From Halomarina litorea (GTDB taxonomy: Archaea; Halobacteriota; Halobacteria; Halobacteriales; Haloarculaceae), in the NCBI RefSeq assembly GCF_024227715.1, contig NZ_CP100449.1, positions 124,001 to 188,000 of the forward strand: a stretch of 64,000 nt of DNA, given 5' to 3'. Under the pieces are notes generated by a model. It made no database searches. It was not told the origin of the DNA and was given only the letters and a program-made list of their open reading frames with translations. The first letter of the stretch is position 1; each line of letters starts with the position of its first letter. Below, in pieces: positions 44,624 to 52,747 of the stretch. Position numbers and translations under genes: made by a program.

Positions 44624-44643
44624 AGACCCCTCGTCCAGAGTGT
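44624..44643 (-). repeat. Solitary origin-recognition-box-like repeat
   Basis: On the minus strand this reads ACACTCTGGACGAGGGGTCT, 19 of 20 identical to the repeats of the origin at 50201-51306. It lies in the gap between a flavin reductase and a thiolase-like gene, 5.6 kb from the origin, in the same orientation as the inverted repeat at 50201. No other copies are seen outside the origin. Confidence 0.75.
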
Positions 44644-50200: not shown

Positions 50201-50220
50201 ACACCCCTCGTCCAGAGTGT
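50201..50220 (-). repeat. ORB 1 (inverted, perfect)
   Basis: Exact reverse complement of the 20-base consensus. It is the only copy in this orientation within the origin, lies left of the A/T-rich patch and is preceded by a short CA run. Confidence 0.8.
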
Positions 50221-50424
50221 AAACGGGAACGAGGGTGGGGGGAGGGGAAGCGGAGGTGTCGGTCAGTGGAGACGTTTCCCGCTATCGAGGCCAACCGACT
50301 CGTGAGGCGCGGAGCGTGTACTGCAGTGACTGCCAAAACAGAACCCCTCTCGAACCCGCTAGACCACCGTTTCCCGTCGAATCGCCGAAGCAGCCGAGTC
50401 TACGCTCGGCTGTCTGTCGACTTG

Positions 50425-50480
50425 CTTAATCTAGCTTGGCGGGATGTTCGCTGGAGTAGCTATTAAATCTAGGGGCAGAA
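50425..50480. other. Probable DNA-unwinding element
   Basis: The A/T-richest part of the origin, with CTTAATCTAGCTTGG and GCTATTAAATCTAGG in close succession, lies between the opposed recognition boxes. Confidence 0.5.
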
Positions 50481-50710
50481 CAGTATCGTCGGATGAGAGG
50501 TCGCGTGGAGAGTGGTGTGGACTGTGATTCGGACGCACCCCTCGCTGCTCTCTCGAGGAGTGTCGTGTATCGAACTACGAGACGGCACAGGAGGCCGCGA
50601 GACGTCAGTACCGCCGTCGTCCGGCGACAATACACCGACTTCGACCTTGACCCACCGCTCCGTTTCGACGCACCTCCCTCCTTACACCCCCCACCCCCTC
50701 TCGCGCAGTT

Positions 50711-50730
50711 ACACTCTGGACGAGGGGTGT
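50711..50730 (+). repeat. ORB 2 (direct, perfect)
   Basis: Exact 20-base consensus, preceded by CTCTCGCGCAGTT. The same prefix precedes ORB 3, so these two copies share a longer repeat. Confidence 0.8.
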
Positions 50731-50988
50731 GTGTGTCCCCTCGGCCCCATCGACAGTCCCCGTCGGCTGGGCCGAACTCCGACGCGAACTGACGGCCACC
50801 GGGGAGTCGTTCGACTCCTCGACCCGGTGGATGAGGTCGACCCATCTTGAGTAATGTCGACCCGGTGCGGGTAATGGTTCGCCGTCACGGGTGATGGTCT
50901 GTCTCTGTACTGCCTCCCGCCTCTGCACCCTCTTCCGTCCTTGCACCCCCTCCTGTCTCTCTCATCTCCGACCCGCTCTCGCGCAGTT

Positions 50989-51008
50989 ACACTCTGGACG
51001 AGGGGTGT
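50989..51008 (+). repeat. ORB 3 (direct, perfect)
   Basis: Exact 20-base consensus, with the same CTCTCGCGCAGTT prefix as ORB 2, 278 bases further on. Confidence 0.8.
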
Positions 51009-51077
51009 CCGAGACCCGTCCCATGTACTCACCGACGACCGGCTCTCGTGGTCTCTACGGCCGATATTCGGACGGAT

Positions 51078-51097
51078 ACACTCTGTGCCGGGGGTGT
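51078..51097 (+). repeat. ORB 4 (direct, degenerate)
   Basis: ACACTCTGTGCCGGGGGTGT keeps both ends and the G run but differs in the centre. Confidence 0.6.
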
Positions 51098-51217
51098 CGG
51101 ACGCGCGTCTGACGAGTGAACAGCGTTCGACAGACGAACAGAACGTGTGCCGACATCGCACACGAACGGACACATTATCGGGACGCTCCTCGACACCCTC
51201 TCCCTCCCGCGCGGTTT

Positions 51218-51237
51218 ACACTCTGGACGAGGGGTGT
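51218..51237 (+). repeat. ORB 5 (direct, perfect)
   Basis: Exact 20-base consensus, followed by the same extra GTGT seen after ORB 2. Confidence 0.8.
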
Positions 51238-51286
51238 GTGTTCCCTCCGTCTCGGACCCCCGACGGTCCACCTCCTGTCACTCGAT

Positions 51287-51306
51287 ACACTCTGGACGAG
51301 GGGTGT
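51287..51306 (+). repeat. ORB 6 (direct, perfect)
   Basis: Exact 20-base consensus, 69 bases from ORB 5. Confidence 0.8.
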
Positions 51307-51342
51307 GGGGAACCGGCAGTACGAGCAGTCAGCCCGCCGAAT

Positions 51343-51350
51343 ACACTCTG
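51343..51350 (+). repeat. ORB 7 (half site)
   Basis: Only the left half ACACTCTG is conserved. Confidence 0.45.
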
Positions 51351-51419
51351 TTCGCGGTCGGTCAGGGATTCGACCTGTCCGGTCGGAGGTCGTCCGAACG
51401 CGGTGAATACCGTGTAGAT

Positions 51420-51438
51420 ACACTCTGGACGGGGAGGG
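51420..51438 (+). repeat. ORB 8 (promoter-proximal, diverged right end)
   Basis: ACACTCTGGACGGGGAGGG keeps the left part and a G-rich tail. It ends 3 bases before the TATA core of orc1/cdc6, where initiator binding would block the promoter. Confidence 0.65.
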
Positions 51439-51440
51439 AC

Positions 51441-51449
51441 AGATATATG
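51441..51449 (+). promoter_or_regulatory. TATA box of orc1/cdc6
   Basis: AGATATATG is centred 28 bases before the ATG at 51473, implying a leaderless transcript and favouring that ATG over the in-frame GTG at 51449. Confidence 0.6.
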
Positions 51450-51472
51450 TGGGAGGCGTTCCGCGAGTGACT

Positions 51473-52747
51473 ATGGCAGACGAACCCACGCGGCTCTCGG
51501 ACTTCGACGGGGCGTACGACGACCCGTCCGAGGACCCCCTGTTCGCCGCCGAGGACGAGGGGCGGGGCCGACTGGGCGTCTTCGAACGCAAGGAACTCCT
51601 GAAGGTCGGACACGTCCCGGAGAGCACTCGCATCGTCGGTCGAGACGGGGAGATCGAGTCGGTCGCCGCAGAACTCCGCCCCATCGTCCAGAACGATCCG
51701 CCGAACAACGTCGTCATCTACGGGAAGACCGGGACGGGGAAGTCGCTCGTCGCGCGCCACGTCACCGAGCGCGCCCGGCGGGCCGCCGTCGCGAACAACG
51801 TCGCCGCGGGGACGGTGTACGTCGACTGCGCACAGCACAACACGCAGACCCGCGTCGCACGCACCATCACCCGGACGCTCAACGACGAGGAGGTCACCGG
51901 CCTCTCCATCCCGCGCGCCGGCATCGGGAGCGGGGAGTACTACGACTACCTCTGGGAGATACTCGACAAACGGTACGACGCGGTCGTGGTCATCCTGGAC
52001 GAGGTGGACCGCCTGAGCGACGACGACGTTCTGATGCAGCTCTCGCGCGCCCGCGAGTCTGGGAAGGCCGAGTGCCACCTCGGGGTCATCGCCATCAGCA
52101 ACAAGATCGAGTACCGCGACCGCCTCAACGAGCGCGTCAAGTCGAGTCTCCGCGAGGAGGAGTTCGTCTTCCAGCCGTACGACGCCGACCAGTTGCGCGA
52201 CATCATGCACCACCGGCGCGACGCCTTCCGCGACGGCGTCCTCACCGAGGAGGTCATCCCGCTCACGGCGGGGTTCGCCGCACAGGAACACGGCGACGCG
52301 CGCAAAGCCATCGAGATTCTCCGCCACGCCGGGGAACTCGCGGAGCGCCGGGGCGACGAACACGTCACGGAAGACCACGTCCGCGACGCACAGGAGTGGG
52401 CTGAGATCGACCGCTTCGAGGAACTGCTCCGCGGATCGACGACGCAAGTGAAGTTCATCCTCTACGCGCTCGCGACGCTCACCGAGGCCTCCGACGGCGA
52501 GGAGTTCTCGACGAGTCGCATCTACGAGCGCTACCGCGACACCTGCGACACCCTCGGCGCGAACGTCCTCGGCGAGCACCGCGTCTACGAACTCCTCAAG
52601 GAGCAGGCGTTCCTCGGCGTCGTCGAGTCCCGTCGCACCGGCGGTGGGCGCGGGCAGGGCAGCTACCTCGAACACCGCCTCGTCAAGGACACCGACGTCG
52701 TCCTGAAGTCCGTCCTCCGGGACAGCAGGCTGAGCGACCTCCGGTAG
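51473..52747 (+). CDS. orc1: Orc1/Cdc6 replication initiator
   Basis: The 424-residue AAA+ ATPase has Walker A VVIYGKTGTGKSLVARHV, Walker B VVVILDEVDRLSDDD, sensor-like VIAISNKIEYRDRLNERVKS and a C-terminal winged-helix domain (about 320-424) with SRIYERYRDTCDTLG. It should bind the adjacent repeats as a dimeric or multimeric initiator and recruit MCM helicase. Length is normal for haloarchaeal Orc1/Cdc6. Its adjacency to the 20-base repeats makes it their cognate initiator, and ORB 8 over its promoter suggests autoregulation. Confidence 0.95.
   Translation: MADEPTRLSDFDGAYDDPSEDPLFAAEDEGRGRLGVFERKELLKVGHVPESTRIVGRDGEIESVAAELRPIVQNDPPNNVVIYGKTGTGKSLVARHVTERARRAAVANNVAAGTVYVDCAQHNTQTRVARTITRTLNDEEVTGLSIPRAGIGSGEYYDYLWEILDKRYDAVVVILDEVDRLSDDDVLMQLSRARESGKAECHLGVIAISNKIEYRDRLNERVKSSLREEEFVFQPYDADQLRDIMHHRRDAFRDGVLTEEVIPLTAGFAAQEHGDARKAIEILRHAGELAERRGDEHVTEDHVRDAQEWAEIDRFEELLRGSTTQVKFILYALATLTEASDGEEFSTSRIYERYRDTCDTLGANVLGEHRVYELLKEQAFLGVVESRRTGGGRGQGSYLEHRLVKDTDVVLKSVLRDSRLSDLR

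Follow-up and report, generated by a model that had tools for sequence, protein, structure and literature searches.

We conclude that the array of repeats upstream of an orc1/cdc6 gene in the 64-kb window (the whole stretch of DNA analysed, C2:124001-188000) is, with high probability, a replication origin, the sole one of its kind on a 375-kb secondary replicon, or megaplasmid. As such the locus is a further member of a known origin family and embodies no new principle; families of boxes and initiators have already been described in principle (PMC3528665, PMC3936714). The new part, relative to known origins, lies in the gap between its inverted and direct boxes: a TATA-AGTCC unit with a covarying dyad, and an origin recognition box (ORB) of the oriC1 type.

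The box array beside orc1/cdc6

The array comprises five letter-perfect copies of ACACTCTGGACGAGGGGTGT and three degraded ones, spanning 50201-51439 on the 5' side of orc1/cdc6 (table 1). The boxes are unevenly spaced, at 69-510 bases, and all three partial copies (51078, 51343 and 51420) retain TACACTCTG. A CoA-transferase family III gene (PF02515) is its 5' neighbour, and an FAA-hydrolase gene lies 3' of orc1/cdc6, whose product contains the domains AAA_22, Cdc6_lid and Cdc6_C and matches TIGR02928 at 424 bits. An earlier, sequence-only reading had placed five perfect and three partial copies, one of them inverted, between a CoA-transferase and orc1/cdc6, and the coordinates and domain matches bear out each of these points. 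Its recognition box of 20 bases is genuine as a repeat; as to length, the family consensus WTWCACTCTKGACGAGGGGTGT, drawn from 239 sites at 44 family loci, is slightly longer. It had overlooked the one-mismatch copy at 44624-44643 (-).

How often would such a box be met by chance? In dinucleotide shuffles of the window 0.01 matches are expected at up to three mismatches, and the six matches observed were reached in none of 100 shuffles. At the same threshold the whole 3.88-Mb genome contains six sites only, the five perfect boxes and the copy at 44624, while the reversed box, used as a control, has no site in it. The 20-mer, for which a genome-wide search had been proposed, is thus not scattered but confined to the locus, save for one isolated copy. 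This copy separates divergently oriented genes for a flavin reductase and a thiolase, and titration or gene control would be guesses at its role. A literature search with the 20-mer itself matched unrelated primers only.

The locus may also be set against published criteria for haloarchaeal origins (PMC3528665). G-string repeats lie in an intergenic region directly beside orc/cdc6; inverted repeats flank an AT-rich element, weak in the window; the adjoining Orc/Cdc6 exceeds 300 aa and has AAA+ and winged-helix domains; and the boxes resemble one another inside an Orc family and differ from one family to the next.

Might the repeats be of another kind, such as the ends of a mobile element, a CRISPR or the iterons of a non-Orc replication protein? 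Iterons are plausible for repeats near a replication gene, but no other replication gene was recognised beside the array, and the uneven spacing, the G-string, the polarity and the one-to-one association with Orc clades speak against repeats of any such kind. We regard this reading as scarcely credible.

A second alternative is that the boxes serve mainly as operators for the control of orc, or as a titration or incompatibility region, and do not mark a start site. One degraded box abuts the predicted orc promoter, so that autoregulation is possible there, and the TATA-like ATATATG next to it would fit a leaderless orc transcript. (A sigma-70 promoter scan, whose model is not applicable to archaea, found nothing.) Some relatives have boxes 3' of orc as well, and titration of an initiator by an ORB array has precedent (PMC3936714). 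However, operators would need neither an inverted box some 1.3 kb away from the gene nor an AT-rich gap, both of which are kept in 38/39 relatives, and we consider this reading very improbable.

Table 1. Features of the window (positions in the window), other origins of the same genome and loci sharing single elements.
Feature	Position or locus	Strand	Remarks
Isolated box, one mismatch	44624-44643	-	5.6 kb from the cluster
Origin recognition box, perfect, inverted	50201-50220	-	borders the gap on the left
Gap separating the inverted box from the direct ones, putative unwinding element	50221-50710		AT-rich
Right half (GAAGCGGAGGT) left of an oriC1-type ORB	50247-50257	+	whole in relatives, 20-24 nt inside the inverted box
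Unit and dyad	50364-50467	-	
oriC1-type ORB-like TTCGACGGGAAACGGTGG, beside the dyad	50364-50381	-	0 mismatches to TTCNNNNNGAAACG
Dyad CAGCCGAG-TCTACG-CTCGGCTG	50391-50412		arms vary among relatives and stay complementary
Diverged counterpart of AGTCC(ATT/TCC)AAGTG, here ATCCCGCCAAGCTAGATT	50428-50445	-	
TATA-like TTTAATA of the unit	50461-50467	-	relatives: TTTATA exactly 22 nt ahead of AGTCC
Origin recognition box, perfect	50711-50730	+	right flank of the gap
Origin recognition box, perfect	50989-51008	+	
Degraded box ACACTCTGTGCCGGGGGTGT	51078-51097	+	matrix score 18 of 44
Origin recognition box, perfect	51218-51237	+	
Origin recognition box, perfect	51287-51306	+	
Half box, only ACACTCTG retained	51343-51362	+	
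Degraded box	51420-51439	+	abuts the predicted orc promoter from upstream
TATA-like ATATATG	51443-51449	+	about 27 nt ahead of the orc start codon
orc1/cdc6, 424 aa, presumed cognate initiator	51473-52747	+	AAA+, Cdc6 lid, winged-helix
oriC1	C1:332 kb		box GTTCCACCCGAAACGAAGGGGTGG
orc locus	C1:1.28 Mb		box GAACAGACGAAACGTACTC
orc locus	C1:2.26 Mb		box TTATGCGGACACGAGGGGTGGG
orc locus	C3		box GAACAAATCGATAGGGGTG
orc locus	C4		box TTACAACTCGAAAAAGGGGGG
orc locus	C5		box GTTTCACCGGAAACGTGGTGTG
Further loci with unit and dyad	L022:1964-2040; L064, L069, L079, L080, L113, L116, L125, L129, L135, L197, L202		
Single window-type box beside an Orc about 36% identical	L137, L140, L145, L148, L154, L163, L164		

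The replicon and the other origins of the cell

On what kind of replicon does the array lie? The genome, of 3,884,949 bases, is assembled in six contigs, and C2 measures 374,934 bases. Neither a tRNA gene nor 16S rRNA was found on C2; the single 16S rRNA gene of the genome is on C1 (3.13 Mb). C2, C4 and C5 each begin 141-335 bp ahead of a ParA match and so look like circular plasmids rotated to a fixed start, though no terminal overlap was found at the ends of C2. When the whole of C2 was searched for 16-mers clustered within 1.5 kb in three or more copies and both orientations, the array was the only match. Base skew along C2 is weak and has its extremes at 109 and 340 kb, off the locus. Since this is the sole such cluster on C2, with parA at the start of the contig and no tRNA or 16S rRNA on it, a megaplasmid origin is the most likely reading of the locus. 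C2 also has a stretch of lower GC (C2:22500-97500, L036-L039; 55-62% against about 69%), possibly acquired DNA, which includes a second, box-less orc-like gene at C2:51254.

Predicted haloarchaeal origins can nevertheless be dormant: two of seven in H. hispanica lacked ARS activity (PMC3528665). Could the locus then be a genuine but dormant or crippled origin, C2 being replicated from elsewhere or as part of another replicon? Dormant orc origins are on record in H. mediterranei and H. hispanica (PMC4595724, PMC3528665), orc7 of H. volcanii gave no peak at home, three boxes of the array are degraded, and its dyad and oriC1-type element have diverged. On the other hand, C2 has no other ORB-like cluster, no repeats surround the orc-like gene at C2:51254, and decay would not keep five boxes letter-perfect. 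Dormancy is in our judgement unlikely, and a functional origin of C2 remains the reading that we prefer.

There are 18 matches to the window Orc in the genome, and a de novo repeat search around them identified at least six further orc loci with boxes of their own (table 1). At up to four mismatches of 20 the window box matches its own region only, and none of the other origins' boxes matches the window region at that threshold; a cross-match matrix of the boxes contains two single matches, both between other origins. By our own reading of the open reading frame, oriC1 adjoins a DNA polymerase D small-subunit-like gene. The sequence-only reading had expected an origin that coexists with several others in the cell. 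Other origins with different boxes do exist; this one, however, belongs to a secondary replicon and is not one of several on one chromosome. Elsewhere on C1 (L023, C1:2697500-2709500) four orc-like genes lie within 8 kb, several of them truncated or interrupted; obvious boxes are lacking, and the group may be an array of integrated origins in decay.

A family of boxes and initiators

Orcs at least 76% identical to that of the window occur on at least 26 named plasmids, and the next lower identity is 59%. The box pattern matched 63 stretches in a collection of genomes of 84,980 species, the named ones being haloarchaea, and a close match was found in 27 of the 146 genomes of the window's own family. 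Phages and viral contigs contained no close Orc relative and no box. The same layout is common to 44 distinct loci, a few of which end at contig ends or show small departures: one or a few distal inverted boxes come first, a gap follows, and direct boxes run from there to orc. All 39 members that are complete at that end have the inverted distal box or boxes, the gap and the direct boxes, and in 38 of the 39 the AT-richest 60-mer upstream of orc falls inside the gap, against 11.1 expected at random. The window-type Orcs form one clade (support 93/99) with members from several haloarchaeal families. The genes flanking these loci are non-syntenic, even inside the window's own genus, and we conclude that box array and orc behave as a cassette.

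Sister Orc clades, 50-59% identical, have the related boxes CACTCGGTGCGAGGGG, CACTCGGAACGAGGGG, CACTCGGTACGAGG and CAGTCTGAACGAGGGG; remoter clades have box types CACCGGAAACG and CGACGGAAACGTGGGG. The nearest boxes align ungapped, the main difference being four bases between CACTC and CGAGGGG, a pattern that fits co-diversification of initiator and box (PMC3528665). Derivation of the window box from the oriC1 box by loss of two bases was considered and dropped, since the sister boxes align without gaps. The series CACTC-(four variable bases)-CGAGGGG is found in many haloarchaeal genera and lends itself to the question of how Orc1/Cdc6 reads an origin.

Does the window Orc recognise its own box, and that box alone? 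A clade-by-clade comparison shows that box and Orc type travel together across haloarchaea, and from this we infer that the initiator is specific for its box. The pair may not be exclusive. Another Orc type, 36-37% identical to that of the window, has boxes of its own and also, at a conserved place upstream, a single near-perfect box of the window type; loci of the L137 type carry two further repeat types, CACATCGATGACGGGGGG and TTGCACACGGGGTG. Ten genomes with such or other stray single boxes were searched and contained no Orc more than 54% identical to that of the window, so that the box alone is no proof of an exclusive pair. Of the proposal of an initiator/box pair with its own specificity, co-inheritance thus supports the pairing, which, to judge by the stray boxes, may not be exclusive.

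How might an origin of this kind work? With its winged-helix domain and AAA+ insertion, the Orc1/Cdc6 encoded at 51473-52747 would bind to the boxes; melting of the AT-rich gap, at about 50.22-50.71 kb, would follow, then loading of MCM and replication in both directions. Tuning or titration of the initiator, as by oriC2D of Haloarcula hispanica, may be the role of the surplus direct boxes on the orc side and of the box that stands alone at 44.6 kb. Distinct boxes at each origin would let each replicon start by its own initiator.

Conserved elements of the gap

In the window the gap is only modestly AT-rich: its AT-richest 60-mer (about 50427-50486) is 55% AT in a window of about 67-70% GC, and elsewhere the window has stretches richer in AT. 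What, then, is conserved within it? In relatives we find TTTATA, exactly 22 nt, AGTCC(ATT/TCC)AAG, a half-site and, a further 15-25 nt along, an inverted repeat that begins about 46-58 nt past the TATA. The copy in the window has diverged yet is recognisable, with ATCCCGCCAAG starting at 50445. Of 25 independent gaps, 16 have at the same place a perfect inverted repeat 7 bp or more in length, against about 5% of shuffled sequences. The TATA-AGTCC unit is present in two sister Orc families also. It lies on the strand opposite to orc in the window family and on the same strand as orc in the genome's own C5 origin; its direction in either case is from the larger box array towards the smaller.

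Searched in 146 genomes, the strict unit pattern had six perfect matches, all of them in ORB origins; as a test of prediction, two were new and each had an 8-bp stem. One-mismatch matches looked like chance. When the hairpin was not required, stems of at least 7 bp accompanied 9 of 15 anchor matches, against 0.2 expected.

The automatic alignment of the dyads left some rows out of register, and pairs were counted in a hand-anchored, N-padded alignment, in which 92% of the cells pair (32-48% in slid registers) and both partners have changed in 10 of the 11 pairs. Hand anchoring leans towards structure, for which reason the counts that do not require a hairpin were added; the count over 25 gaps and the strict-pattern and anchor tests are the fairer ones. 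The half-site, at 9-14 nt past AGTCC, forms a third copy and covaries with the arms of the dyad: when the dyads were permuted among origins, the similarity observed between half-site and arms was reached in none of 20,000 trials, the kinship of the rows being left in. G-U accounts for only two of about 193 paired cells, which favours a dyad or cruciform in duplex DNA over an RNA stem, and Rfam gave no match for 50-53 kb even at E = 1.

The second element is an ORB-like KTCCASNNGAAACRGNGGTT of the oriC1 type, 20-24 nt inside the inverted box in most family members. With one mismatch allowed, TTCNNNNNGAAACG is found in 11 of 25 gaps, against two in shuffles and one for a reversed control. This suggests that the universal initiator may bind at window-type origins too.

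From these observations we draw a tentative proposal, which we rate as plausible rather than probable: the gap would hold a composite core, hitherto undescribed and common to the megaplasmid origins of several Orc families, at which a second, replicon-specific factor or a gap RNA would control melting and to which the chromosomal Orc1/Cdc6A would bind too. If so, binding of Orc1/Cdc6A would tie megaplasmid replication to the chromosome.

Comparison with known systems

The haloarchaeal oriC1 (Cdc6A/Orc1; ORB approximately TTCCASTGGAAACGAGGGG) resembles the locus in its inverted G-string boxes around an AT-rich gap beside orc, and in a polarity that is equal, C-run left and G-run right. It differs in the clade of its Orc, and the window box departs from the cell's own oriC1 box, GTTCCACCCGAAACGAAGGGGTGG, at 8 of 20 positions. 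We also considered whether the locus is oriC1 itself and rejected this: its initiator is not of the Cdc6A type nor its box a TTCCA-type ORB, and oriC1 lies at C1:332 kb. The oriC1-type ORB of the gap bears on the coordination of several origins by Cdc6A that has been suggested (PMC3936714).

In H. hispanica each origin depends on the adjacent cdc6, whose product fires that origin, and oriC1 requires its G-string (PMC3936714). Like the window, oriC2 and oriC2D of Haloarcula hispanica have an unequal array of many boxes, for which titration of the initiator has been proposed (PMC3936714). There, however, the surplus boxes lie 3' of cdc6E, whereas in the window they lie between the gap and orc, with one isolated box 5.6 kb upstream.

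The nearest named counterpart is probably oriP3-orc7 of H. volcanii. The gene HVO_A0257 (orc7, on pHV4) is 1278 nt long (PMC2841640), as is that of a plasmid Orc of Haloferax alexandrinus which is 79% identical to the window Orc and has the same boxes and layout; the published threshold for an orc family is about 80% identity or more (PMC3528665). Gene length, plasmid context and accession series link that copy with HVO_A0257, which makes orc7 a probable orthologue of the window Orc. The origin oriP3-orc7 had ARS activity in H. mediterranei and was silent in H. volcanii itself (PMC4595724).

Have elements comparable to those of the gap been described? Northern analysis has verified a small RNA that lies immediately 5' of orc5 in H. 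volcanii, at oriC2 (PMC6490895). The resemblance is one of analogy only: the unit pattern had no convincing match in 15 Haloferax genomes, and H. volcanii oriC2 was discarded as a further copy. As far as descriptions can be compared, ucm and UBP of Sulfolobus offer another parallel, in that a conserved non-ORB element likewise lies in an archaeal unwinding region (PMC12141716). But ucm is a fixed 11-bp sequence, whereas the element of the window family combines a TATA-AGTCC unit with a dyad, the arms of which vary in sequence and covary. It bears on the question raised by the Sulfolobus work in 2025, whether analogous factors for non-ORB elements exist in other archaeal lineages (PMC12141716).
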